This document shows positions 38,431 to 60,976 of a stretch of 64,000 nt of DNA, one piece after another. Under the pieces are notes generated by a model. That model was not told the origin of the DNA and did not search any database. It was given only the letters and a program-made list of their open reading frames with translations. The DNA is from Oceanomicrobium pacificus (lineage in GTDB: Bacteria; Pseudomonadota; Alphaproteobacteria; Rhodobacterales; Rhodobacteraceae), in the NCBI RefSeq assembly GCF_009833495.1, contig NZ_WUWG01000002.1:1-64000 (forward strand), written 5' to 3'. The translations under genes were made by a program, and so were the position numbers. Within the stretch, counting starts at the first letter, position 1, and the number at the start of each line of letters is the position of its first letter.

Positions 38431-38492
38431 TTGACAGGAGGGTTGCGCCTCGGTTTATGTTCACGTTAACATTTAAATGTTCACGGGAACAA
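38431..38492 (+). promoter_or_regulatory. promoter with two LacI-type operators
   Basis: TTGACA at 38431-38436 and TTTATG at 38454-38459 (17-bp spacer). Two 16-bp palindromes follow: ATGTTCACGTTAACAT (38457-38472), overlapping the -10 box, and ATGTTCACGGGAACAA (38477-38492). Their centres are 20 bp apart, so both face the same side of DNA. They share the half-site ATGTTCA with the perfect palindrome at the lacI-type gene (48299-48314), so that regulator very probably represses here. The first gene starts at 38504. Confidence 0.8.
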
Positions 38493-38503
38493 TTGAGGGT
38501 CGG

Positions 38504-39817
38504 ATGTCGAATCGAATTGACAAGGTGATTGCGCGGCGGGTCTGGGACAGTCGCGGGAACCCGACCGTCGAGGTGGAAGTGCAGACCACAGGCGGCCGTG
38601 TAGGGCGCGCCATCGCGCCTGCGGGCGCCTCGCGCGGGACGCGGGAAGCCATAGACATGCGGGACGGCGGCAAGGCGCTTGGCGGGCTCGATGTCGGGCA
38701 GGCCGTTGCCAATGTCGCGGAGCGCATCGCACCCGCGCTGAGCGGCCTCGATGCAACGGACCAGAAAGCCGCAGACGACGCCATTCTTGCGCTCGATCCG
38801 AGCGCCCTGAAGGACAGGCTTGGCGGCAATGCGACTGTCGCGGCATCGCTGGCTGTGGCCCATGCGGGCGCGGCCGCCAAGGGCGAACCGCTCTGGCAGC
38901 ATCTGGCCGACCTGTCGGGCGCGACGCCGAGCATCCCCCTGCCGGAAATCCAGATCTTCGGCGGCGGTGCCCATGCGGGGCGGCGCGTCGACATTCAGGA
39001 TTTCATGGTGATGGTGCCCGGCGCCTCGACCTTCGGGGAGGCGCTCGAGATCACGTCGGAGGTCTACCGCGCCGCGGGCAGCCTGATGGAGCGTAAGGGC
39101 CGGTTGGCCGGCGTTGCGGACGAGGGCGGCTGGTGGCCGGTGTTCGATCACAACGAAGAGGCGCTCGAAACGCTGGTGAAGGCGATCGAACTGGCCGGGG
39201 AGACGCCGGGCGACCGCGTTGTCATCTCGCTCGATATCGCGGCATCGGAATTCGGCAAGGATGGCCGTTACCGGCTGGCGCTGGAGGACCGCGAACTGGG
39301 GCGGGACGAGATGATCCGCCTGCTCGGTGACTGGCTCGACGCCTATCCGATCGCCTCGATCGAGGATCCACTGGCCGAGGATGATCCCGACGGGATGCGG
39401 GCCTTCACCGCGGCCTATGGCGACCGGGTCCAGATCATCGGTGACGATTATCTGGTGACCAACAGCGCATTGGTGCGCGACGCGGCCACGGATCGCGCCT
39501 GCAACGCGGTGCTGATCAAGGTCAATCAGGTCGGCACGCTGAGCGAGGCGCTCGACTGCCTGACAACCGCGTCCGATCGCGGGTTCGGCACCATCGTCTC
39601 GGCCCGTTCGGGCGAGACCGAGGATGTCTCGATCAGCCATATGGCGGTGGGCTTCGGCGCCCGTCAGCTCAAGGTCGGGTCCTTCACCCGCTCCGAGCGG
39701 ATGGCGAAATGGAATGAATGTCTCCGCATCGGTGATGCGATCGGGCAGGACCGGTTTGTCGCTGGCGCACCGCTGGCCGACACCGCCTGGGCCCGCACTT
39801 ACAAGGGAGCAGCCTGA
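38504..39817 (+). CDS. divergent enolase paralogue, proposed sugar-acid dehydratase
   Basis: 437 residues from ATG 38504. Clearly enolase-fold: ARRVWDSRGNPTVEVEV at the start, metal ligands D244 (SLDIAASEF), E287 (IASIEDPLAEDD) and D314 (IIGDDYLVTN), base K339 (LIKVNQVG), E207 (ADEGGWWP), H157 (GGGAHAG), K390 (QLKVGS). Departures from housekeeping enolase: the loop GASTG is GASRG, the Glu of QEFM is D166, and the His of SHRSGETED is A367. Arg368 and Ser369 remain. It leads a LacI-controlled operon with FAH, SDR and ABC genes but no IlvD or MR/MLE dehydratase, so I infer dehydration of an aldonate-like acid. An ATG at 38477 lies inside an operator and is rejected. Confidence 0.88.
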   Translation: MSNRIDKVIARRVWDSRGNPTVEVEVQTTGGRVGRAIAPAGASRGTREAIDMRDGGKALGGLDVGQAVANVAERIAPALSGLDATDQKAADDAILALDPSALKDRLGGNATVAASLAVAHAGAAAKGEPLWQHLADLSGATPSIPLPEIQIFGGGAHAGRRVDIQDFMVMVPGASTFGEALEITSEVYRAAGSLMERKGRLAGVADEGGWWPVFDHNEEALETLVKAIELAGETPGDRVVISLDIAASEFGKDGRYRLALEDRELGRDEMIRLLGDWLDAYPIASIEDPLAEDDPDGMRAFTAAYGDRVQIIGDDYLVTNSALVRDAATDRACNAVLIKVNQVGTLSEALDCLTTASDRGFGTIVSARSGETEDVSISHMAVGFGARQLKVGSFTRSERMAKWNECLRIGDAIGQDRFVAGAPLADTAWARTYKGAA

Positions 39818-49430: not shown

Positions 49431-50345
49431 ATGGAAAACCAGCAAGGCAGTCCGTTGAAAGTGGCGGTGATCGGCCTCGGGTCGATGGGCTACGGCATGG
49501 CGCAGTCCGCGCTGCGGGGCGGGCACAGGGTCTGGGGCAGCGACATCGCCCGGGACCAGGTTGACCGGTTTCGCGCAGAAGGCGGGGAAGCTGGCCCGCT
49601 GGCCGTGGCCTTGCCCGAACTTGATGTAATTGCCCTCGTGGTCCTCAATGCCGCCCAGACCGAGGATGTCCTCTTCGGCACGGACGGTGTCGCCCGGCAT
49701 CTGCGCCCCGGCGCGGTCATCCTGTCCTGTGCAACGGTCGCGCCGGCCTTTGCGCGCGAGATGGCGGCGCGGTCGGCGGAGCTTGGGCTTCTCTATCTCG
49801 ATGCGCCGATCTCTGGCGGCGCGGTCAAGGCCGCATCCGGCGCACTGACCATCATGGCATCGGGTCCGGAGGCGGGATTTTCTGCTGCCGGGCCGCTTCT
49901 CGACTGCCTTGCCGAGCGGGTCTTCCGGCTGGGCGATGCGGCAGGTGCGGGAAGTGCCATGAAGGCCGTGAACCAGCTTCTTGCGGGCGTCCATATCGCG
50001 GCCATGGCCGAGGCGCTCACCTTCGGCCTGTCGCAAGGCATCACGCCGGACAGGTTCCTTGACGTGATCCCGCAATGCGCCGGCACCAGCTGGATGCTTG
50101 AAAACCGCGCGCCGCATATTGTCGAGGGGGACTACACCCCCCGCAGTGCTGTCGATATTTGGCCGAAGGATCTGGGGATCGTCCGCGAGATCGCCGGGGC
50201 CAGCGGATGTCGGGTGCCGCTGGCTGACGCCGCGCTCGCGCGTTTCAGGGAAGCGTCTGCCGCGGGGCTGGGACGGGAGGATGATGCCGCCGTGGCCAAG
50301 ATCTATGCCCGCGAAGCCGGGCTCGACCTTCCCGGAGACGGGTGA
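49431..50345 (+). CDS. ltnD: beta-hydroxyacid dehydrogenase, L-threonate dehydrogenase-like
   Basis: 304 residues. Rossmann VAVIGLGSMGYGMAQSA, the LtnD-type VVLNAAQTEDVLFG and ILSCATVAP, substrate motif LDAPISGGAVKAASG, catalytic Lys178 in AMKAVNQLLAG. These match 3-hydroxyisobutyrate-family enzymes of the L-threonate/D-erythronate type, which oxidise C2 of four-carbon sugar acids. The usual partners (OtnK kinase, OtnC decarboxylase) are not in the window, so the substrate here may differ. RBS GGAGG 8 nt before the ATG. Nearly abuts the convergent gene (stops 3 bp apart). Confidence 0.75.
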   Translation: MENQQGSPLKVAVIGLGSMGYGMAQSALRGGHRVWGSDIARDQVDRFRAEGGEAGPLAVALPELDVIALVVLNAAQTEDVLFGTDGVARHLRPGAVILSCATVAPAFAREMAARSAELGLLYLDAPISGGAVKAASGALTIMASGPEAGFSAAGPLLDCLAERVFRLGDAAGAGSAMKAVNQLLAGVHIAAMAEALTFGLSQGITPDRFLDVIPQCAGTSWMLENRAPHIVEGDYTPRSAVDIWPKDLGIVREIAGASGCRVPLADAALARFREASAAGLGREDDAAVAKIYAREAGLDLPGDG

Positions 50346-50348
50346 GCT

Positions 50349-51173
50349 TTACCCCGCAAGGGTCAGCCCGAGCAGGCGCTCCGCCTTGGCGGTGGAGAAG
50401 AAACTTGCCCGTCCCTCGAAAGTGCCGCGAAGCGGCACATCGGGGAAATGCGTGGCGGCCAGCTCGCGGCTCGGGCGGTCATGGACCGTGTCGCGACCCG
50501 TGATGTAGAACGCCTCATGGCCCCTGTAGGGCGCGTCGAGGACCGCCAGACAGGCTGCGGCCGCATCATCGAAGAGCGTGTAGCCCCAGAGATGTTTGGC
50601 CGCATCATCGTCGCGCGGCAGGAAATTGCCCGCCGCCCCGTCCCGCGCCGGGGTGCAATAGTGGAACCGCAAGCTGGCGATGGTGGCGTCGGGGCAGAGC
50701 CGCGCGAACGCGTCGCCCTGTTGCTCGCAGATCCATTTCGACAGGCTGTAGGCATCCTCCGCCCGTGTCGGATGATCCTCGTCGAGCGGGAAATAGTCGA
50801 ACACCGGTGCGCGGCTGAAGGCCAGGCCCGTCGCATTGACGCTCGACGCCTGACAGATCCGCCGGATGCCCTGATCGAGCGCGGCATGCAGCGCATTGTA
50901 GCTGCCCGCCACATTGCCATTGTGCACGACAGGGTCGGGATGCGTGCCGGGGATCGGGATCGCCGCCAGATGGATGAGCGCGTCGTGACCGGCAAGGGCG
51001 GCGTGGAAAGCATCATAATCCGTGCAGTCGAGTTGCACCCCGTGCAGACGCGGATTGTCCGAGGCCTCCGGCGCCGTCCGGTCGATCGCGGTGACGCTGT
51101 GGCCGTCGCGAAGGGCGCGGGCGACAACCGCGCGTCCGACGCGGCCGGTGCTGCCTGTGATGGCGATTTTCAT
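50349..51173 (-). CDS. extended SDR / NAD-dependent epimerase-dehydratase-like (uronate-dehydrogenase-like)
   Basis: 274 residues from ATG 51173. MKIAITGSTGRVGRAVVA is the extended-SDR cofactor start; HLAAIPIPGTHPDPVV, SSVNATGLAF and YSLSKWICEQQG (YxxxK) follow. The text HLAA.P.....P..V...N resembles uronate and sugar-1 dehydrogenases. An upstream ATG (51215) directly after the GntR stop adds 14 residues and is possible, since these two genes are in one unit. The enzyme may supply or consume a sugar acid in the locus. Confidence 0.72.
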   Translation of the reverse strand: MKIAITGSTGRVGRAVVARALRDGHSVTAIDRTAPEASDNPRLHGVQLDCTDYDAFHAALAGHDALIHLAAIPIPGTHPDPVVHNGNVAGSYNALHAALDQGIRRICQASSVNATGLAFSRAPVFDYFPLDEDHPTRAEDAYSLSKWICEQQGDAFARLCPDATIASLRFHYCTPARDGAAGNFLPRDDDAAKHLWGYTLFDDAAAACLAVLDAPYRGHEAFYITGRDTVHDRPSRELAATHFPDVPLRGTFEGRASFFSTAKAERLLGLTLAG

Positions 51174-51216
51174 GGGGGGTGCCTGTCCTGCCTGTCGGTC
51201 GGTTGAAGCGGGCATC

Positions 51217-51876
51217 TCAGCCCTGATCGAGGTGGAAGCTCAGCGCCCGTCCAGCGCCGTTCACATGTCGGGTGATGACCTCAGTCGCGCTCGGCACATC
51301 ATTTTTGCGGAAGGCGGCGATCAACTGGTCATGTTCGATCAGAACGTCATGGTGCCGGCCCTTGGTGAGCACCTTGCGCCGCGTCAGCGTGTTGAGAAGC
51401 TGGCGCTGGCTCAGCCATGTGCGGGCCGCGCGCCGATTGGGATGGCCAAGCGCGATCAGGCTGTGAAACTCCATGTCGAGCGCGCCGAAACCCGGCCGGT
51501 CGAGCGGAGACATTTCACGGATGCGCGCCTGAATCCGTTCCAGTTCGTCCACCTGATCGGATGTGCAGATCGCGGCAAATCCGGCGGTCAGATAGGGCTC
51601 CACGAGGCGAATCATCTCGAAGATGTTGATCACTTCCTGCCGGTCGAGCTGGGTGACGGTCGCGCCCTTGTTCTTCTCGAACGTGACCAGTCCCTCGCCT
51701 TCCATCCGGCGCAGCACCTCGCGCACCGGGTTGATGCTCGTCCCGTAGCGTTTCGCAATGGCGTGGATGCGCAACGGTGTACCGCTCTGGTACTGGCCGT
51801 CGCCGATATCCGCGAGCAGGCGGTCATACAAAGGCAAATCGTGACTAAATTCGTTGGCAGGCGCGGTCATAGGCAC
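51217..51876 (-). CDS. FCD-type GntR transcriptional regulator
   Basis: 219 residues. Helix-turn-helix IHAIAKRYGTSINPVREVLR, wing LVTFEKNKGATV, then the FCD domain with metal/ligand residues in DMEFHSLIALGHP and EHDQLIAAFRKND. Divergent from the third sugar ABC operon (start 52104), which it likely controls, and cotranscribed with the extended SDR at 50349. Distinct from the FadR-type regulator at 26471 by shorter N terminus and sequence. Confidence 0.9.
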   Translation of the reverse strand: MPMTAPANEFSHDLPLYDRLLADIGDGQYQSGTPLRIHAIAKRYGTSINPVREVLRRMEGEGLVTFEKNKGATVTQLDRQEVINIFEMIRLVEPYLTAGFAAICTSDQVDELERIQARIREMSPLDRPGFGALDMEFHSLIALGHPNRRAARTWLSQRQLLNTLTRRKVLTKGRHHDVLIEHDQLIAAFRKNDVPSATEVITRHVNGAGRALSFHLDQG

Positions 51877-52103: not shown

Positions 52104-53582
52104 ATGTTTGCAATAGTTGCAGCACGGCCGCGCCGTGCACTGGCTAAAATGGGGGCGCTTCTCGCATCCTCGGCCATGATCTTGAGCGGCCCGGTCGCCG
52201 CTCAATCGATTGATCCGGAGAAATGGACGCCGGACTATGTCCGCTCCATCGCGGGCAAGACGACGGTCGATACGGCAGCGGAGTGCGCCAAGGCCGTGCC
52301 GCTCGATTACGAGGGGCAGGTCGATTACTGGTATGTCGGCCCGAACGAGGCCAACCCCGAGCTCGAGCACAAGATGTATGCCGACTTCTGGGCCGCCTGG
52401 GAGGAAACCTATCCCAATATCGAGGTGAACGCGCAGAACCTCGGCTACAATGACATGCTCAACAAGCTGCGCACGGCCGCGCTCGGCAATGCCGCGCCCG
52501 ACGTGGCGCGCCTGCCGATCCTCTGGGGCTCGGAGTTCGCCGCCAAGGGCCAGCTGAGCGAGCTGAAGCCCGAAGATGTGGGCTATGACAGCGCCAACTT
52601 CTGGCCGGGTGCAATGAAGTCGGTCTCGCTCAACGGCAAGACCTGGGGCATCCCGACCAACAACGAGACCATGGCCTTCATCTGGAATGCCGGCATTTTC
52701 GAGGAAGCCGGGCTCGATCCGGAAAAAGCGCCCGACACCTGGGCGGAAGTGGTCGAATATTCCAAGCAGATCAAGGAAAAGACCGGCAAGGCCGGCTATG
52801 GGCTGGTGGCGCGCGTCAACGCGGGCAACACACCGTTCCGCTTCATGCCCATGGTCTGGGGTGAAGGCGGCGGCGCGCTCGACGAGGCGTCCGAGAGCCC
52901 GACCTATCAGGATGTCTGGATCGGCAAGGAAGGCACGGTCCGCGCGGTGCAGAACTACTATGACATGTATGTTCGCGACAAATCCGTGCCGGTCTCGGCG
53001 CTGACCAACACCCAGACGGAAAACCAGGATCCGTTCCTGGCCAACCAGCTGGCCATGGTCATCGCGCATCCCAGCGAATATGCGACCATGCTCGACCGCG
53101 CCAACAAGGCCACCGGCAGCGACAAGGAAGCCGCCATGGCCGTTGTGAACAACATGCGCTACGGCAAGATCCCGGCTGGCCAGGATCGCCGCGCGGTGGT
53201 GTTCGGCGGGTCCAACGTCCACATTTTCAATCCTGACAATGTGGAAGGCGATCTCGACATGGAGGCCGCGAAGGCACTGGTCTGCTTCATGACCGGTCCG
53301 GAATGGTCCACGAAACTCGCCTGGGTCAGCTCCAACCCCGGCAACACACGTGGGTTCGAGACCGAGTGGATGAAGGAACGTCTCGACACGATCAAGTTCC
53401 TCGACGTTTCGACCTCGATGCTCCCGAGCGGCATACCCTTCCCGCCGGTCGCGGAAAGCCCCGAGATCATGAACATCATCATTCCCGAGATGCTGCAGAA
53501 CGCACTGACCGAGAAGATGACCGTCGAAGAGGCCGTGGCTGACGCGGAGAAGAAGGTCAAAGCGCTGCTGGATGGCATGTGA
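52104..53582 (+). CDS. sugar ABC transporter binding protein (family 1)
   Basis: 492 residues, longer than most family-1 binding proteins (about 420). Signal peptide to about residue 34 (MILSGPVAAQS). Markers: YVGPNEANPELEHKMYADFW, GYNDMLNKLRTAALGNAAPD, WGIPTNNETMAFIWNAGIFE, AHPSEYATMLDRA. RBS GGGAGG 5 nt before the ATG. First gene of the GntR-controlled importer and dehydratase operon; substrate probably the sugar or sugar acid handled by the two MR/MLE enzymes at the operon's end. Confidence 0.92.
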   Translation: MFAIVAARPRRALAKMGALLASSAMILSGPVAAQSIDPEKWTPDYVRSIAGKTTVDTAAECAKAVPLDYEGQVDYWYVGPNEANPELEHKMYADFWAAWEETYPNIEVNAQNLGYNDMLNKLRTAALGNAAPDVARLPILWGSEFAAKGQLSELKPEDVGYDSANFWPGAMKSVSLNGKTWGIPTNNETMAFIWNAGIFEEAGLDPEKAPDTWAEVVEYSKQIKEKTGKAGYGLVARVNAGNTPFRFMPMVWGEGGGALDEASESPTYQDVWIGKEGTVRAVQNYYDMYVRDKSVPVSALTNTQTENQDPFLANQLAMVIAHPSEYATMLDRANKATGSDKEAAMAVVNNMRYGKIPAGQDRRAVVFGGSNVHIFNPDNVEGDLDMEAAKALVCFMTGPEWSTKLAWVSSNPGNTRGFETEWMKERLDTIKFLDVSTSMLPSGIPFPPVAESPEIMNIIIPEMLQNALTEKMTVEEAVADAEKKVKALLDGM

Positions 53583-53603
53583 TCTTCTGAGAACTTGAAC
53601 GTG

Positions 53604-53635
53604 GGGCTCCCGCCGGTCCGTGCCGGCGGGGGCCC
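53604..53635 (+). promoter_or_regulatory. intercistronic GC hairpin after binding-protein gene
   Basis: 13-bp stem GGGCTCCCGCCGG / CCGGCGGGGGCCC with one G-T pair and loop TCCGTG, 21 bp after the stop, no T run. Third such hairpin in the same position relative to a binding-protein gene. Confidence 0.75.
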
Positions 53636-53691
53636 AGCCACCCGAACCAACAATCAACAAAAGACCGATCCGGGCGCGAGAAGGGGCGGAC

Positions 53692-54627
53692 ATGAGCAAG
53701 ACCCACCGCAGCGAGCCATCGACACGCGGCTTTTTCGGCCGCATTGCCGACCACCGGCTCGATTACCTCTATATCCTGCCGGCCCTCGGCGTGATGATGC
53801 TGGTGATCGCCTACCCGATCTACTACACGGTCTACCTGTCCTTCTTCCGCACGCCGCCGAGCCTTGCGATGCAGGACAAGATCTTCAACGGGATCGACAA
53901 TTACATCACCATCCTGACGGCCGAGAGCTTCCACGAGGTCACGATCAACACGATGGTCTGGACCTTCTGGTCGACCTTCATGGCGATGATCCTGGGCCTT
54001 GGCGCAGCGCTGGTGCTGAACCGCGAATTTGTGGGGCGCGGCGTCCTGCGCGGGCTGCTTCTGATCCCCTATGTCATCAGCGCGGTCGCGGCCTCCTACA
54101 TCTGGCGCTGGATCTATCACAGCGATTTCGGGGTGCTCGGCGCGATCCTGCTGCAGCTTGGTCTTATCGATGACAAGTTGAACCTGCTCGACAACGTGGA
54201 TCTGGTGCTGCCCTCGCTGATCGTGGTGAATGTGTGGAAGGAGTTTCCCTTCGCCATGATCATGATCCTGGCCGGCCTGCAAACGGTACCGGACCAGCTT
54301 CTGAATGCCGCGCGGGTCGACGGGGCAGGGGCTTTCGAGCGGTTCCGCCATGTCACGCTGCCGCATCTGAAAGGCGTGCTCGTCATCACGGTGCTGCTGC
54401 TCTTCGTGGCCAACCTCAACCATTTCACCATCCCGTGGATCATGACCGGCGGGGGGCCGGCCGGCGCCAGCGACATCTGGATCACCCAGATCTACCAAAT
54501 CGCCTTCGGCCGCATCCGTTTCGGGATCGCCAGCGCCTATTCGGTGATCCTGTTCGGGGTGATGGTCGTGATCGGATATTTCTACGTCAAGGCGCTGACC
54601 GGCGATGACGACAGGAGGCACGGATGA
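53692..54627 (+). CDS. sugar ABC transporter permease (MalF/UgpA type)
   Basis: 311 residues from ATG 53692. Membrane segments YLYILPALGVMMLVIAYPIY, TFWSTFMAMILGLGAALVL and others, EAA loop AARVDGAGAFERFRHVTLP. Overlaps the next permease by 4 bp. The upstream in-frame ATG at 53620 would run through the hairpin and is rejected. Confidence 0.93.
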   Translation: MSKTHRSEPSTRGFFGRIADHRLDYLYILPALGVMMLVIAYPIYYTVYLSFFRTPPSLAMQDKIFNGIDNYITILTAESFHEVTINTMVWTFWSTFMAMILGLGAALVLNREFVGRGVLRGLLLIPYVISAVAASYIWRWIYHSDFGVLGAILLQLGLIDDKLNLLDNVDLVLPSLIVVNVWKEFPFAMIMILAGLQTVPDQLLNAARVDGAGAFERFRHVTLPHLKGVLVITVLLLFVANLNHFTIPWIMTGGGPAGASDIWITQIYQIAFGRIRFGIASAYSVILFGVMVVIGYFYVKALTGDDDRRHG

Positions 54628-55478
54628 ACAGCCGTTTCCGTATCACCCGCTGGCATGTGATGGGCTGGATCTTCCTTGCCACGCTCCTCTTCTTCGCCGT
54701 GGCGCCGATGGTCTGGATGCTGATCACCAGCTTCAAGTCGCAGTTCGCCGCCCTGAAATACCCGCCGGAGCTCATTCCCCAGAACCCCAATCTGGAACAG
54801 TATGAGCGGCTCCTGTCACCCAAGAACGATGTCGGGCGGCAGTTCCTGCGCTACATGCTGAACTCGATCTGGGTCTCGACCGCCACCACCGTCTTCGGCG
54901 TCGCGGTGGCGGTGCCGGCGGCCTACGCGTTCGCGCGGTTCCGCTTCCCCGGCCGCAAGGCGCTCTTCTTCTCGGTCCTCTTCCGCAACATGTTCCCGGC
55001 TGTTGTCTTCCTGATGCCGCTCTTCATCATGATGCGCTGGATGGGGCTGGTGAACACCTACACCTCGCTCATCATCACCTATCTGACTTTCGGCCTGCCG
55101 TTGTCGATCTGGCTGCTGAAGGGCTTTTACGACAATATCCCGGTGGAACTGGAGCAGGCGGCGCGGATCGACGGCTGCACCCGGTTCCAGGCCTTCTACA
55201 TGGTTGTCATGCCGCTTTCGGCGCCGGGGATCATCGCGACCGCGATCTATTCCTTCATCACCGCGTGGAACGAATATGTCTATGCGCTGACCTTCCTCAA
55301 CGATGACGAGAAGCTGACCCTGCCCGTGGGCCTGCAACGGTTCTTTGCCGAATATGCGACCAACTGGCCGGGTCTGATGGCGGCCTCTTTCATCATGAGC
55401 GTGCCCGTCGTGGTCATGTTCCTGATCCTGCAGAAATATTTCGTGCGCGCCCTGACCGAAGGAGCGGTCAAGGCATGA
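54624..55478 (+). CDS. sugar ABC transporter permease (MalG/UgpE type)
   Basis: 284 residues. Six membrane segments beginning VMGWIFLATLLFFAVAPMVW; EAA loop AARIDGCTRFQAFYMVVMP; ends FVRALTEGAVKA. ATGA overlap with the partner permease indicates coupled translation. Confidence 0.93.
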   Translation: MNSRFRITRWHVMGWIFLATLLFFAVAPMVWMLITSFKSQFAALKYPPELIPQNPNLEQYERLLSPKNDVGRQFLRYMLNSIWVSTATTVFGVAVAVPAAYAFARFRFPGRKALFFSVLFRNMFPAVVFLMPLFIMMRWMGLVNTYTSLIITYLTFGLPLSIWLLKGFYDNIPVELEQAARIDGCTRFQAFYMVVMPLSAPGIIATAIYSFITAWNEYVYALTFLNDDEKLTLPVGLQRFFAEYATNWPGLMAASFIMSVPVVVMFLILQKYFVRALTEGAVKA

Positions 55479-55513
55479 GCGTTTGCGATGCGACTAACTG
55501 GACGGAGTGCTGA

Positions 55514-56608
55514 ATGGCGCAGGTTGATTTCGTGAATGTCGACAAATCCTATGGCAGCTTCCGCGCGGTCAAGGACGTGTCCTTCACCGTGGGCGACGGG
55601 GAATTCGTGGCGCTTGTCGGCCCGTCGGGCTGCGGCAAGACGACGACCCTGAACCTGATCGCGGGACTTCTGGACCTGACCGGTGGGGAAATCCGCGTCT
55701 CGGGCAAGGTCATCAACGATCTCGACCCCAAGGATCGGGACATCGCGATGGTGTTCCAGAATTACGCGCTCTACCCCAACAAGACGGTGGCGCAAAATCT
55801 CGGCTTCCCGCTGCGCATGCGCAAGGTGGCCAAGGCCGAGATCAAGGACAAGGTCGAGGAGGCGGCGCGGCTGCTCGACATCACCCATTTGCTCGACCGC
55901 TATCCCCGTGAGCTTTCCGGCGGTCAGCAGCAGCGCGTCGCGCTGGGCCGGGCGCTCGTGCGCGACCCTCAGGTCTTCCTGATGGACGAGCCCCTGTCGA
56001 ACCTCGACGCGAAGCTTCGCGTGCAGATGCGGGCGGAACTGAAACGGTTCCACCAGGATCTGAACGCAACCGTGATCTACGTCACGCACGACCAGTTGGA
56101 GGCCATGACCATGGCCGACAAGATGGCCGTGATGAGCGGCGGCGTGCTGCAGCAATATGATGCGCCTGAGCGCGTTTTCGAGGAACCGGCGAACCTCTTC
56201 GTGGCAAGTTTCGTGGGCAGCCCGGCGATGAACCTGCTACCGGCAACGCGGGTGGAGCGCGACGGCACGGTTTTCGCAACCGGGGAAGGGTGGGAGCTGA
56301 CGCTTTCAGACCGCAACGGCGCGGCGGCCCGCCGGTCCGAGACGGACGCCATCATCCTCGGTGCCCGTCACAGCAGTCTTGCGCTGCACGAGACCGAGAC
56401 AAGCGGCGCCATTCCCGCCCGCATCTACACGGTCGAGCCGACAGGCGACCTGACCTATGCCCATGTCGAGGTGGGGGACAAGACATTCGTCATCTCGGTT
56501 CCGCCGGACCGCCGCATTGCCGCCGACCAGCCGGTCTGGATCGGTTTCGACCAGAACAAACTGCATCTATTCGACGCCAAAACCGAACAGCGGATCGCGC
56601 AGGACTGA
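55514..56608 (+). CDS. sugar ABC transporter ATPase (UgpC/MalK type)
   Basis: 364 residues. Walker A GPSGCGKTT (36-44), Q-loop VFQNYALYPNKTV, signature LSGGQQQRVALGRA, Walker B VFLMDEPLSNLDAKLR, switch VTHDQLEAMT, C-terminal regulatory domain. Third member of the importer with 52104, 53692 and 54624. Followed after 35 bp by the dehydratase gene. Confidence 0.95.
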   Translation: MAQVDFVNVDKSYGSFRAVKDVSFTVGDGEFVALVGPSGCGKTTTLNLIAGLLDLTGGEIRVSGKVINDLDPKDRDIAMVFQNYALYPNKTVAQNLGFPLRMRKVAKAEIKDKVEEAARLLDITHLLDRYPRELSGGQQQRVALGRALVRDPQVFLMDEPLSNLDAKLRVQMRAELKRFHQDLNATVIYVTHDQLEAMTMADKMAVMSGGVLQQYDAPERVFEEPANLFVASFVGSPAMNLLPATRVERDGTVFATGEGWELTLSDRNGAAARRSETDAIILGARHSSLALHETETSGAIPARIYTVEPTGDLTYAHVEVGDKTFVISVPPDRRIAADQPVWIGFDQNKLHLFDAKTEQRIAQD

Positions 56609-56643: not shown

Positions 56644-57843
56644 ATGAAAATCATCGACATGAAATGCGCGGTGATCGGCGACAATCCCGTCGTCCGCATC
56701 ATCACCGACGAGGGCATCAGCGGCTATGGCGAGGGTGAGTATTTCAAGCCCTTCCTCAAACCCTATGTGCTCCATTTCAAGGATGCGATCCTGGGCGAGG
56801 ACCCGACAGACGTTGAACGGGTGATGATGCGCATTCGCCGGCGCGGGGCCTTCAAGCCCTGGGGCGCGGCGATCAGCATGATCGAACATGCGCTGTGGGA
56901 TATTGCCGGCAAGGCAGCCGGCGTGCCGGTCTACAAGCTGCTGGGCGGCAAGGTGCGCGACAAGGTGCGCGTCTATAACGGGGCCATCCGGACCGAGATG
57001 ACCGGCACCGACCCTGACGATTACGTGGCGGCGGTGCGCGAGATGAAGGCGCTGCCGCACGGGTTTTCCTTCATCAAGATGGGCGTCGCCTTCCACAGTC
57101 CGATGAAGGACAATGTCCCAAACTTCCACTATGGCGACCCGCAGCGGCCGAACCCGTTCCACGGGTTCACCGACAGCGGGCTTCTGACCGAACGCGGCAT
57201 GGCGCATCTGGTCGATTGCGTCGCCGCGATGAAGGAGGAACTGGGCGACGAGGTCGGGCTGGCGCTCGATTGCGGCCCGGGCTTCACGCCGATCGATGCG
57301 CTCAAATTCGCGCGTGCGGTGGAGCCGTTCAACCTGATGTGGCTCGAGGACATGATCACCGGCGACTATACGCCGTGGGTCAATGCCGATGTCTATCGCG
57401 ATGTGACGCAGGCCACGACAACGCCGATCCACACGGGCGAGCAGATCTACCTGCGGCAGAATTTCAAGGCGCTGATCGAAGGCCACGCGGTCAATGTGGT
57501 CGGGCCCGACCCGTGCGATGTGGGCGGTCTGGCCGAGATCAAGTGGATCGCGGAATATGCCGATCTGCACGGGATCATGATGGCGCCGCACGGCACCGGA
57601 AACGGGCTTCTGGGGCTTGCCGCTCTTGTGCAGGTCTGCGCCACCATGCCCTTGAATTATATTGGTTTCGAACTGCCGACCGGCCGGCCCGACTGGTGGT
57701 TCGATATTGTGGACGGGCTGCCCGACCCGCTGGTAAAGGACGGCTATATCGAAGTGCTCGACCGGCCCGGCATGGGGGTTGAACTCAACCGCGACCGTAC
57801 AGAGCCATACCTGCGCGAAGAGGATAAGGATTTCTTCGAATGA
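56644..57843 (+). CDS. MR/MLE-family sugar-acid dehydratase (enolase superfamily), copy 1
   Basis: 399 residues from ATG 56644. Capping domain KIIDMKCAVIGDNPVVRIIT, then the barrel with K145 (SFIKMGVAF), metal ligands D209 (LALDCGPGF), E235 (LMWLEDMITGDY) and E266 (IHTGEQIYL), catalytic H316 (MMAPHGTGNG) and E343 (GFELP). This is the arrangement of acid-sugar dehydratases (galactonate/mannonate group). Product would be a 2-keto-3-deoxy sugar acid. Stop overlaps the aldolase-like gene by 4 bp. The long frame opening at 56290 is the shadow of the ATPase gene. Paralogue at 58636. Confidence 0.9.
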   Translation: MKIIDMKCAVIGDNPVVRIITDEGISGYGEGEYFKPFLKPYVLHFKDAILGEDPTDVERVMMRIRRRGAFKPWGAAISMIEHALWDIAGKAAGVPVYKLLGGKVRDKVRVYNGAIRTEMTGTDPDDYVAAVREMKALPHGFSFIKMGVAFHSPMKDNVPNFHYGDPQRPNPFHGFTDSGLLTERGMAHLVDCVAAMKEELGDEVGLALDCGPGFTPIDALKFARAVEPFNLMWLEDMITGDYTPWVNADVYRDVTQATTTPIHTGEQIYLRQNFKALIEGHAVNVVGPDPCDVGGLAEIKWIAEYADLHGIMMAPHGTGNGLLGLAALVQVCATMPLNYIGFELPTGRPDWWFDIVDGLPDPLVKDGYIEVLDRPGMGVELNRDRTEPYLREEDKDFFE

Positions 57844-58577
57844 CCCACACGCCCGACATCACGCGCCCCGACCGGTCGGTCATCGAGGCGCTTTCCGGCA
57901 TCGGATCGGCCACCGCCAGCGCCGAGCTGCACCGGCTCGGCATCCGCAACACCCATATAGAGGGGCTGACCAGTTGGACGCCGGGCAAGTCGATCGTCGG
58001 CCCCGCGATCACGCTGCAATTCATGCCGTTGCGCGAGGATGTCTATCAGGACGATGAATATGGCGATCCCGAAGCACAGCTGCACCGCCATGCGCTCTAT
58101 CATGTGCAGGACGGTGACGTGGTCGTCGTCGATGCGCGCGGCAAGCTCGACAGCGGCGTCTTCGGAGAAATGATGATGACCTATCTGAAGGGCCGCGGCG
58201 GGCAGGGGGTCGTGATCGACGGCGCGCTGCGCGACTGGCCCAATATCCAGAAGGTCGATATCGGATGCTGGATCCGCGGCGTCACGCCCAACTATCACAC
58301 CCAGCGCGACATCTTTCCCTATGCGGTCAACGTGCCGATCGCCTGCGGCAACTGCTATGTGGCGCCGGGCGATATCATGGTGGCAGACGATGACGGCGCG
58401 GTGGTCGTGCCGGTCGGCATGGTCGATGCGCTGCTGGAGCGGGCCGTGTCCCATGTCGAGTGGGAGGAGTTTTCGCGCCTGAAGCTGAGCGAGGGCGGCG
58501 ACTTGCGCCGCTATTACCCGCTCTCCGACGATGCCCGTCCGGAATATGAAGCCTGGAAGGCCAAGCAGACATCCTGA
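57840..58577 (+). CDS. RraA-family protein, probable class II pyruvate aldolase (HMG/CHA-type)
   Basis: 245 residues. RraA/demethylmenaquinone-methyltransferase-like fold (IVGPAITLQFMPLR; VQDGDVVVVDARGKLDSGVF). E110 followed after exactly 20 residues by R131-D132 (VVIDGALRDW) is the metal-site pattern that separates catalytic 4-hydroxy-2-oxoacid aldolases from true RraA. Between two dehydratase genes, it probably cleaves their 4-hydroxy-2-oxo product to pyruvate and an aldehyde or acid. ATGA overlap with the upstream dehydratase. Confidence 0.85.
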   Translation: MTHTPDITRPDRSVIEALSGIGSATASAELHRLGIRNTHIEGLTSWTPGKSIVGPAITLQFMPLREDVYQDDEYGDPEAQLHRHALYHVQDGDVVVVDARGKLDSGVFGEMMMTYLKGRGGQGVVIDGALRDWPNIQKVDIGCWIRGVTPNYHTQRDIFPYAVNVPIACGNCYVAPGDIMVADDDGAVVVPVGMVDALLERAVSHVEWEEFSRLKLSEGGDLRRYYPLSDDARPEYEAWKAKQTS

Positions 58578-58635
58578 AACCCCGGCGCGGTCGCACCCGT
58601 CCGCGCCTGTTCCATACCGACAGAGGAGACATGCG

Positions 58636-59835
58636 GTGAAAATCACCGATCTCAAATGCGCCGTGATCGCGGACAGCCCCGTTCTGCGCATCACCACCGA
58701 CGAAGGCATCACCGGCTGGAGCCAGATCGAGACGCCGAAGCCCTATCTGCAGCCGATCGTGCTGCAACTGAAGGACTGGATTGTCGGGCAGGACCCGCGC
58801 GACGTGGAACGCGTGATGCGCCGGATCCGCGTGCGCGGGGGATTCAAGCCGTTTGGATCTGCCGTCAGCGCCATCGAACATGCGCTCTGGGACATCGCGG
58901 GCAAGGCAGCGGGCGTGCCGGTCTACCGGCTGCTTGGCGGCAGGGTGCGGGACCATGTCCGGACCTACCGCACGCTCTACCAGCACGAGATGGGCGTCGG
59001 TCACACGCCCGAGGACTATGTGAAATGGGCGGAATATGGCAAGTCGCTGCCCGAGGGCTTCACCATGTTCAAGCTGCCGACGAGTTTCCATTCCGCGATG
59101 GTCAGCGACCATCCTAATTTCTTCTACGGCGATGTCCAGACGGACGCGCCGTTCCCCTATCCGCACAAAGGCGTCATGACCGAAGACGGGATGGCGCATC
59201 TGGTCGATTGCGTGACCGCGGCCAAGGAAACGCTCGGATCTGCCTGCGGCCTCGCGGTTGATGCGGGCCCCGGCTACATGCCGCAGGATGCGCTCAAATT
59301 CGCCCGCGCGGTGGAGCATCTGAACCTGCTCTGGATCGAGGATATGATCACCGGCGACTATTCGCCCTTCGTCAATCACGATGTCTATCGCGATGTGACC
59401 CATGCGACGACCACGCCGATCCATACCGGCGAACAGATCTATCTGCGCCAGAACTACAAGCATCTGATCGAAAGCCACGCGGTCAATGTGGTCGGTCCCG
59501 ATCCGTGCGACGTGGGCGGGCTGGCCGAATTGAAATGGGTCGCGGAACATGCGGACCTGCACGGAATCGCGATGGCCCCGCATGGCACGGCCAACGGCAT
59601 TCTCGGGCTGGCGGCGCTCATTCAGGTCAGCGCGACCCTGCCGGATAATTTCATCGCCTTCGAATATCCTGCCCGGTTCGAGCCGTTCTGGTACGACATC
59701 ACCGAAGGGTTCGATGGCGTGCCGGTGAAGGACGGCCGCATCGCGGTGCCGGACCGGCCGGGCCTCGGCGTCGATCTGGTGCCCAAGGAGGCGAAGAAAT
59801 ACCTGTCCGAAGGGGACGCGGACTTTTTCGACTGA
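58636..59835 (+). CDS. MR/MLE-family sugar-acid dehydratase (enolase superfamily), copy 2
   Basis: 399 residues from GTG 58636; the ATG at 58631 leads to a stop after two codons, and the alignment with copy 1 (VKITDLKCAVIADSPVLRIT against MKIIDMKCAVIGDNPVVRII) supports GTG. Same catalytic set: FTMFKLPTSF, LAVDAGPGYM, LLWIEDMITGDYS, IHTGEQIYL, AMAPHGTANG, AFEYP. The Lys-containing loop differs (FKLPT against IKMGV), so the substrate may be an epimer or a related acid. Last gene of the operon; a hairpin follows. Confidence 0.9.
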   Translation: MKITDLKCAVIADSPVLRITTDEGITGWSQIETPKPYLQPIVLQLKDWIVGQDPRDVERVMRRIRVRGGFKPFGSAVSAIEHALWDIAGKAAGVPVYRLLGGRVRDHVRTYRTLYQHEMGVGHTPEDYVKWAEYGKSLPEGFTMFKLPTSFHSAMVSDHPNFFYGDVQTDAPFPYPHKGVMTEDGMAHLVDCVTAAKETLGSACGLAVDAGPGYMPQDALKFARAVEHLNLLWIEDMITGDYSPFVNHDVYRDVTHATTTPIHTGEQIYLRQNYKHLIESHAVNVVGPDPCDVGGLAELKWVAEHADLHGIAMAPHGTANGILGLAALIQVSATLPDNFIAFEYPARFEPFWYDITEGFDGVPVKDGRIAVPDRPGLGVDLVPKEAKKYLSEGDADFFD

Positions 59836-59844
59836 CGGGCGGGC

Positions 59845-59874
59845 AAGACCGGCGGGGCTGCGTCAGCCGGTCTT
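59845..59874. terminator. bidirectional hairpin between convergent genes
   Basis: 9-bp stem AAGACCGGC / GCCGGTCTT around a 12-nt loop, 10 bp after the plus-strand stop; its right arm is inside the last codons of the minus-strand gene. No long T run. Confidence 0.45.
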
Positions 59875-60915
59875 CAGCCCGGCTCGCAGCCGTTCGACCG
59901 CGCCGTCAAGGTCGGTCTGGAAGCCGGGCAGGAACAGGTCGCGCACAGCGGCGTTGAGCGCCTCGTCGGCGGCGGCTTCCGCGGCGCTCGCACCACCGGT
60001 CAGTTGTTCGAATTCCTCGAAAGCGTCGAGGATCAAGAGCGGCTCGTCGAGCACACCCTGCACCACCATGCTGATCGACATATGCTCGATCTGGTTGTCA
60101 TTCTCCGCCGGTCCGACGAAACGCGGCGCGAATCCCGAGACCCCCCAGATTTCCGCATCGCGGGCGGGTGTCCCGGTCTCATATTGCCAGATCGTCCCGA
60201 GGTGGAAGCGCCGCGCGAACCCGTGATCGAAAATCCGCATCTGCGTCAGCGGGTTGGTCCGAGTCGCGCCGGATATAAGCTGCTGCCACGCGTAGAGCGC
60301 CTTTTCCGATGGCGTGTCGAGATAGGGCGATTGCTCCAAGAGATGCTCTTGCGGCACTTCGAAGAGGAGCGCCAGCACCGGCGCGAACATGTCGAGCGCC
60401 GTATCGAGCGCCGTATCCTCCACGCCTCCGGTCTTGAAGCTGTGAAACCGCGTCCAGGCCGCACCGAGCGCGTCGAGATACGGCTTCCCCTCGGTCGTAT
60501 TGAGCGCGGCCACCACCTTGTAGCTCGTCCAGCCGTCGGCCAGCATGTCCGCTGTTTCGGCATCCCAGAACGCTGGCGGGATCGGCTGTCCAGCCGCGGC
60601 ACTTTTTTCCGTCAGCGCCGCAATGCCCGCAGCATATGCGGCCAGCGTGCTGGCATCGACCGTCCCGTCCGCAAGGCGCGCCATATGGCCCGATACGGCA
60701 ATATCTCCGAGGCGTGGCTCGGCATGCAGTCCGGCATCGCGCAAAGCATCGGCGATCCGGTCGGGGCTGGCTGGTGCTGCGTCGGCCGGTGTGGCCGGCG
60801 CCGACAGGCGATCCTCCGGCAGCCCGAAGAAGATCAGCCGCAATTGCGGCACCATCACCACCGCAAGCGCGAGGATGAGCAGGATCAGAAGGATCGAATA
60901 GACCAGCGTTTTCAT
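59863..60915 (-). CDS. hypothetical membrane-anchored protein
   Basis: 350 residues from ATG 60915 (GTG 60927 possible). One N-terminal membrane helix (TLVYSILLILLILALAVVMV) and then a soluble, helix-rich Ala-rich domain, presumably periplasmic, with WDAETADMLADGWTSYKVVA, MRIFDHGFARRFHLG and SISMVVQGVLDEPLLILDAF as its most conserved-looking parts. I recognise no family. It begins a set of four minus-strand genes unrelated to the catabolic island. Confidence 0.65.
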   Translation of the reverse strand: MKTLVYSILLILLILALAVVMVPQLRLIFFGLPEDRLSAPATPADAAPASPDRIADALRDAGLHAEPRLGDIAVSGHMARLADGTVDASTLAAYAAGIAALTEKSAAAGQPIPPAFWDAETADMLADGWTSYKVVAALNTTEGKPYLDALGAAWTRFHSFKTGGVEDTALDTALDMFAPVLALLFEVPQEHLLEQSPYLDTPSEKALYAWQQLISGATRTNPLTQMRIFDHGFARRFHLGTIWQYETGTPARDAEIWGVSGFAPRFVGPAENDNQIEHMSISMVVQGVLDEPLLILDAFEEFEQLTGGASAAEAAADEALNAAVRDLFLPGFQTDLDGAVERLRAGLKTG

Positions 60916-60976
60916 CGAGCGCCCCACGCGCAGATCATGATTTGGTCAAGTCTAACGCTTGCGGGGCGGCTTCGGT

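Follow-up and report, generated by a model that had tools for sequence, protein, structure and literature searches.

In Escherichia coli, rhmD-yfaV-yfaU brings together a dehydratase, a transporter and a 2-keto-3-deoxy-acid aldolase, the last of which, YfaU, is annotated as 2-keto-3-deoxy-L-rhamnonate aldolase. The YfaU family is not RraA-like. The same kind of clustering is found in Oceanomicrobium pacificus, in a stretch of 64,000 nt (the window; GCF_009833495.1, NZ_WUWG01000002.1, positions 1-64,000). Here, a sugar-type ATP-binding cassette (ABC) importer directly precedes two MR/MLE genes, MRa and MRb, which flank a gene for an RraA-family protein. The chances appear evenly divided that this locus is a sugar or sugar-acid catabolic module of the non-phosphorylative (oxidative) Entner-Doudoroff-like type, with RraA, rather than a YfaU-type enzyme, as the 2-keto-3-deoxy-acid aldolase. 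The system is a variant of the known sugar-acid catabolic clusters, with what is plausibly a new type of lyase.

Two RraA-family enzymes serve as biochemical references. In the HMG/CHA aldolase of Pseudomonas putida, Arg-123 and Asp-124 are required for catalysis and metal binding (PMC5065237). Its acidic residue-X20-R-D pattern aligns with that of the window RraA, these two residues matching R131 and D132, although it belongs to an aromatic meta-cleavage pathway, unlike the sugar-acid setting proposed for the window gene. FlDet from Flavobacterium UMI-01 (237 aa), similar in length to the window protein, is a KDGR dehydratase/decarboxylase which acts on a 2-keto-3-deoxy sugar acid, 2-keto-3-deoxy-glucarate (PMC8563752).

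A conserved module of importer, MR/MLE enzymes and RraA

The genes of the locus are the following:

50349-51215, minus strand: short-chain dehydrogenase/reductase (SDR) of the NAD-dependent epimerase/dehydratase family (Pfam Epimerase), candidate sugar or uronate dehydrogenase
51217-51876, minus strand: GntR/FCD transcriptional regulator (Pfam GntR and FCD)
52104-53582, plus strand: periplasmic sugar-binding protein (SBP) of the ABC importer (Pfam SBP_bac_1)
53692-54627, plus strand: ABC permease A (Pfam BPD_transp_1), with an alternative upstream GTG start at 53620
54624-55478, plus strand: ABC permease B (Pfam BPD_transp_1; best NCBIfam model MalG, below cut-off)
55514-56608, plus strand: ABC ATPase of the UgpC/MalK type (NCBIfam PRK11650, 448 bits, cut-off 432)
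56644-57843, plus strand: MRa, MR/MLE enzyme of 399 aa, probable sugar-acid dehydratase, with K145, D209, E235, E266, D289 and H316
57840-58577, plus strand: RraA-family protein of the PRK08245 subfamily, 245 aa, with E110-X20-R131-D132, probable metal-dependent 2-keto-3-deoxy-acid lyase
58636-59835, plus strand: MRb, diverged MR/MLE paralogue of 399 aa with a GTG start, with K146 and D209

The regulator and SDR genes (50349-51876) are divergent from the importer (52104-56608, plus strand), and the gene downstream of MRb (59863-60927) lies on the opposite strand. The MRa stop and the RraA start overlap as ATGA both in the window and in loci L025-L028, which suggests translational coupling. Orthologues of MRa, RraA and MRb occur in the same order in L025-L028 with 83-91% protein identity, so that all three are considered real genes. 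The regulator has orthologues 63-70% identical in L025-L027, and the SDR has them in L026 (59%), L127 and L178 (both 56%). A first-pass annotation had described two 399-residue dehydratase-family paralogues around an RraA protein, and their coordinates and lengths agree with this description, the two being 64% identical; the importer and GntR genes lay outside the stretch that it covered, and it likewise lacked the SDR, the broad occurrence in rhizobia and the connection with dmtH described below.

A scan with MRa returned 207 loci, of which the best 80 were named. Around MRa, these contain SBP in 68 (relatives with at least 55% identity), the ATPase in 67, GntR in 60, the further MR/MLE genes MR6, MR7 and MR4 in 63, 52 and 42, RraA in 21, and MRb in only 4. 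The figure for RraA is too low because the rhizobial gene sits just beyond the 9-kb flank; the view from these flanks, that rhizobial loci lack RraA, was discarded, as plasmid and whole-genome searches place it about 10 kb away. In fact, a whole-genome search (E<=1e-60) found RraA in 50 of 50 tested MRa-bearing Hyphomicrobiales genomes, taken from the 60 loci L045-L104. Judged by the best-scoring copy, the distance from MRa is 9.2-10.6 kb in 48 of the 50 (equating numbered with named contigs, whose lengths agreed for the five that were fetched). The remaining two show 11.9 kb (L058) and 14.7 kb (L101), the latter with a second RraA copy at 9.7 kb. On plasmids, the distance is 0.8-10.6 kb on at least 43 records common to both listings, the full sets being larger (93 and 96 records).

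Outside these genomes RraA of the window type is rare: of 384 others sampled from the class, 3 carry it (E<=1e-50), yet an MR/MLE gene is its neighbour in all three, which argues that the association is more than chance; one of them, L122, has no MRa within the 20 kb fetched. The importer, the MR/MLE enzymes and PRK08245-type RraA thus form a conserved genomic module, supported by the linkage observed. The compact importer-dehydratase-aldolase pathway suggested in the first-pass annotation is thereby supported in part: the linkage is general in the Hyphomicrobiales genomes tested, but the exact MRa-RraA-MRb triplet occurs in only 4 of the 80 named loci. Rhizobial loci contain three or four different MR/MLE genes, and in L032 and L034 the module has as its neighbour a KDG-kinase-like gene that scores below its cut-off. 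As a separate observation, many Mesorhizobium loci have a NIPSNAP-family gene just upstream of MRa (23 of 80; for example, L045:8617-8991).

Features of the RraA protein and the two paralogues

The only Pfam match of the middle protein is RraA-like (PF03737, 116.9 bits, cut-off 24.5), and it exceeds the cut-off of the NCBIfam PRK08245 subfamily (284.4 bits against 208). Two motifs have been published for RraA-type aldolases, D-X20-RD and G-X20-RD-X2-E/D. The residues E110, R131 and D132 are confirmed, so the label of aldolase pattern given to E110-X20-R131-D132 in the first-pass annotation is fair by motif, but Glu stands where the published motif has Asp, and the sequence RDWPN has neither Glu nor Asp at X2. 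In a set of 23 distinct genes more than 50% identical to the window RraA (itself included; three end-of-contig fragments lacking the site left out), the first position is Glu in 19 and Asp in 4, while RD is kept in all 23; the rhizobial orthologues, about 61-62% identical to the window protein, carry Asp. Assignment as the HMG/CHA aldolases LigK or PcmE was rejected (111.3 against 304.5 and 111.9 against 179 bits, NCBIfam cut-offs). Based on family and motif, the window RraA is a probable metal-dependent 2-keto-3-deoxy-acid lyase. A second RraA of the same genome (L141, C3:63000-82000) is 34-35% identical and shows the G-X20-RD-X2-E form; its surroundings include an MR/MLE gene, a UxuA-like gene and genes of the DHDPS family.

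Both MRa and MRb exceed the cut-offs of Pfam MR_MLE_N and MR_MLE_C, as expected of the MR/MLE enolase superfamily. Alignment with E. coli RhmD, DgoD, RspA and GudD shows that the metal ligands D209, E235 and E266 and the dyad D289-H316 are retained in both, and these positions are invariant across an 18-row alignment. The earlier statement that the two share a catalytic set and differ in their Lys loops (IKMGV in MRa, FKLPT in MRb) is therefore borne out. Across 60 rows of MRa relatives, the Lys loop reads KQGISF in 58, and DCGPGW, HTGEQI, GPDP and PHG are present in all 60 (the 80-protein MRa/MRb alignment omits the MRa of L035, L036, L038, L039, L043 and L044 owing to gene calling).

The active-site pattern is closest to that of RhmD, which has a KMP Lys loop and DCW after strand 3, and with which the window proteins have in common the K-M/L-P/G loop, D-C/A after strand 3 and PHG at the base His; aligned identity to RhmD is, however, only about 31% (MRa) and 26% (MRb). 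From this pattern, MRa and MRb are likely sugar-acid dehydratases. Three specific assignments were rejected on NCBIfam cut-offs (scores for MRa and MRb, respectively): galactonate dehydratase DgoD/PRK14017 (180.2 and 181.2 against 311 bits, with D-C-G/D-A-G instead of D-F-H), L-rhamnonate dehydratase (109 and 90.1 against 393 bits, the active-site pattern alone being similar) and D-mannonate dehydratase ManD (143.1 and 133.2 against 550 bits). No curated specific function in Pfam or NCBIfam matched either protein. The predicted structure of MRb (predicted local distance difference test, pLDDT, 87.8; predicted TM-score, pTM, 0.89) has the enolase-superfamily fold, and its top match by Foldseek and VIA is 2qq6, whose function is not known (Z 42.5, root-mean-square deviation 2.7, 369 aligned residues).

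In a tree of 49 rows, from which several near-identical rhizobial rows and L039 were omitted, the six MRb sequences form one clade (support 100/100) on a stem of 0.75; that of the five MRa from triplet loci measures 0.15. This clade nests within the MRa family, its sister relation to the triplet MRa being weak (86/60), and 55 sites are fixed differently between the six MRb and the five triplet MRa, including residues 29-34, the Lys loop and C210A. By this phylogeny MRb is a diverged duplicate of the MRa family, and the existence of a separate, conserved and diverged clade fits a second substrate. The locus may represent a natural pair of duplicated dehydratases that share a lyase, one copy having been conserved and the other having diverged fast.

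Proposed pathway and competing readings

The pathway proposed here builds on what is observed: gene order and its conservation, the metal and base residues, the RraA motif, and the linkage of RraA to MR/MLE and importer genes. From these we infer its substrates and its four reactions. The CUT1-type importer would bring in a sugar, which the divergent SDR would oxidise to a lactone or acid. In MRa and MRb, the His of the His-Asp dyad would take the alpha proton to form a Mg-bound enolate, followed by elimination of the 3-OH; the two enzymes would act on different diastereomers, and the product would be a 2-keto-3-deoxy acid. Finally, RraA, as a class II metal enzyme, would split this acid into pyruvate and an aldehyde.

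One Mesorhizobium row points in this direction. In Mesorhizobium sp. BR1-1-16 (L178:3374-9348), the genes follow the order UxuA-like, SDR (56% identical to that of the window), ManD, RraA (61%), MR4 (78%) and SMP-30 lactonase. The ManD is an equivalog (690.4 bits, cut-off 550), the lactonase is SGL by Pfam, and the UxuA-like protein exceeds the cut-off of its subfamily model (223.9 over 191) while falling short of that of TIGR00695 (156.6 of 199.55). The products of ManD and UxuA are 2-keto-3-deoxy-D-gluconate (KDG). Such a row supports the order of aldose dehydrogenase, lactonase, dehydratase and aldolase of a non-phosphorylative Entner-Doudoroff-like pathway, which would in turn explain the CUT1-type importer. 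The UxuA-SDR-ManD row is repeated in genome G588, about 6.5 kb from an MRa (L127).

Several observations weigh against this reading. The SDR has a relative with at least 50% identity in just 1 of the 80 named loci. It resembles uronate dehydrogenase weakly (3rft, 43 bits; top PDB match 3wj7, 48 bits), as expected of a distant relative of that enzyme that remains a candidate sugar or uronate dehydrogenase. In 5 of the 80 loci, MRa has beside it an SDR of a different, uronate-dehydrogenase-like (Udh-like) cluster (98 bits to 6mfh). After strand 3, DgoD reads DFHGR, MRa DCGPG and MRb DAGPG, so that the D-x-H histidine (general acid) of E. coli DgoD is absent from both in the alignment. In the KxK motif, the second Lys is replaced by Gly in MRa (KMG) and by Pro in MRb (KLP). 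With both of these residues replaced, MRa and MRb could conceivably act as epimerases or cycloisomerases. Regarding RraA, FlDet is inactive on KDG and 4-hydroxy-2-oxoglutarate (PMC8563752), and the AlphaFold model of the window protein (pLDDT 41.5) was not used.

The first-pass annotation had suggested that the two dehydratases accept epimeric or related acids and deliver a common product to RraA. MRb does not always travel with RraA. A single MRb-type match (81% identity) was found in 389 other genomes of the order, that of G588 (L126:9851-11056), where it is apart from the importer and RraA and adjoins a major facilitator superfamily (MFS) transporter; among NCBIfam models, the latter comes nearest to the D-galactonate transporter subfamily, with a score under the cut-off. 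Consequently, MRb can serve a substrate of its own and need not feed RraA.

The main alternative, itself unlikely, is that the substrates are aldarates: the SDR would oxidise a uronate, MRa and MRb would turn the aldarate (lactone) into 2-keto-3-deoxy-glucarate by opening or dehydrating it, and RraA would convert this product into alpha-ketoglutaric semialdehyde. The uronate-dehydrogenase-like SDR beside MRa in several loci is consistent with it, as is the fact that Gci and glucarate dehydratase, of the known uronate route, belong likewise to the enolase superfamily. A parallel is the dehydration and decarboxylation of 2-keto-3-deoxy-glucarate by FlDet, for which the only accepted substrate among those tested is this aldarate-derived acid. 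FlDet is, however, only 26% identical to Streptomyces RraAS2 (PMC8563752), to which the window RraA aligns with 234 bits (5x15), placing FlDet and the window RraA in different subfamilies. Furthermore, the dehydratases that accompany the module in L178 and L127 are those of mannonate rather than aldarates, and no aldehyde dehydrogenase was seen adjoining the window triplet.

It is improbable, too, that MRa and MRb catalyse successive steps of one pathway, with, for instance, cycloisomerisation or epimerisation preceding dehydration, instead of one step on two epimers. The long MRb stem, the differences fixed in active-site loops, the several MR/MLE genes per rhizobial locus and the presence of a 3,6-anhydro-D-galactonate cycloisomerase (5olc) among the structure-database matches would agree with such a division of labour, which is opposed by the identical metal and dyad residues of the two proteins and by the occurrence of MRb alone in G588.

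The remaining alternative originates from dmtH of Mesorhizobium huakuii 7653R, a bacteroid-specific gene of 249 aa published as a demethylmenaquinone methyltransferase required for nitrogen fixation (PMC3237581). Of the 30 best rhizobial loci, 11 contain an exact match to its quantitative PCR primer inside RraA, and two contain one to its upstream primer, 22 bases before the RraA start codon. The open reading frame primers fit, in the best case, with one (forward) and three (reverse) mismatches, whereas the second downstream primer has no match with fewer than four. Three of six translated rhizobial RraA genes have the same length as dmtH, and the best named relatives in the dmtH paper carry RraA near MRa (10.5 kb in WSM1325, 10.0 kb in CFN42). 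Judged from primers, length and reported identities, dmtH (JN400272) is apparently the rhizobial orthologue of the window RraA, with methyltransferase as its published function.

This function counts as a further point against an aldolase: DmtH was reported to methylate demethylmenaquinone-8 (DMK-8) and to be needed for menaquinone-7 (MK-7), based on MK-7 detection, in-vitro methylation with crude E. coli homogenate and complementation (PMC3237581). Nevertheless, the window protein and two orthologues scanned contain only the RraA-like domain and no methyltransferase domain. In 46 RraA-carrying genomes, a sample that does not include M. huakuii 7653R, MqnC was found in none (E<=0.001) and MenD exceeded its cut-off in none, although each of the 46 gave weaker profile matches (at most 85.8 of 244.2 bits); among 14 control genomes, MenD and MqnC were over cut-off in 7 and 2. 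The known routes to demethylmenaquinone therefore seem absent from these relatives, which makes a methyltransferase role doubtful. That RraA is a demethylmenaquinone methyltransferase, or an RNase E regulator as its relative RraAS2 has been described (an RNase E inhibitor), merely located in the operon, is very improbable given its single domain, these searches and the tie of its gene to those of sugar-acid enzymes.

Returning to the aldolase reading, its extension to the whole subfamily can be offered only tentatively, with more doubt than confidence: PRK08245-type RraA would be a class II aldolase that has gone unrecognised, cleaving 2-keto-3-deoxy aldonates as the partner of banks of enolase-superfamily dehydratases, and dmtH the same enzyme. 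The nitrogen-fixation defect of dmtH mutants would then result from blockage of a sugar-acid pathway, or from toxicity of a keto-deoxy intermediate, in bacteroids instead of lost menaquinone. In the open-licence literature, no report was found linking PRK08245-type RraA or dmtH to MR/MLE enzymes. If correct, this would provide a function for a family widely misnamed 'ribonuclease activity regulator RraA' or 'dimethylmenaquinone methyltransferase', and would enlarge the short list of pyruvate lyases known from non-phosphorylative sugar-acid routes. The role of menaquinone as a bacteroid electron carrier (PMC3237581) would become a simply testable claim.

The aldolase reading would also explain a rhizosphere-induced importer. 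In Rhizobium johnstonii 3841, the order is RraA, MR4, ATPase, permease, permease and SBP, facing GntR, MR7, MR6 and MRa. The CUT1 system RL3860-2 of Rhizobium leguminosarum 3841, whose solute is not known, is flanked by the MR/MLE genes RL3858 and RL3864-66; its induction was reported for the rhizospheres of pea, alfalfa and sugar beet, and an RL3860 mutant competes poorly (competition index 0.58) (PMC3333776). The authors guessed lignin-derived aromatics as substrates; induction of the enzymes was slight (1.4-1.5-fold for two of them) (PMC3333776). From the gene order, this region would be the cluster of L074/L175, since the tags RL3858, RL3860-2 and RL3864-66 within RL3857-RL3866 appear to fit the module order; it differs from the window in having no MRb and three further MR/MLE genes rather than one. 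Two proteins from a proteome study (PMC7950203), RLV_4576A ('dimethylmenaquinone methyltransferase') and RLV_98 ('mandelate racemase'), are encoded far apart and could not be tied to the module. Table 3 of the same paper lists lentil-specific bacteroid proteins RLV_95-98, including a 5-dehydro-4-deoxyglucarate dehydratase and a mandelate racemase, which are not mappable to the module.

Other sugar-acid genes of the window

An L-threonate dehydrogenase is encoded next to the SDR (49431-50345, plus strand; curated model 414 bits, cut-off 350); it was rejected as a member of the module, with no match in the 82 loci compared. Two further sugar-acid blocks extend over 26471-47285, with GntR regulators, sugar importers, IlvD/EDD dehydratases, SDRs and FAH hydrolases, one of which has 2,4-didehydro-3-deoxy-L-rhamnonate hydrolase as its best match, below cut-off. 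The gene for a second full-length enolase (38477-39817, plus strand; 446.5 bits, cut-off 300) is flanked by those for an IlvD/EDD dehydratase and a fumarylacetoacetase-like hydrolase; the genome encodes another enolase on contig C5 (681.2 bits). The presence of a glycolytic-type enolase within a sugar-acid cluster is unusual.

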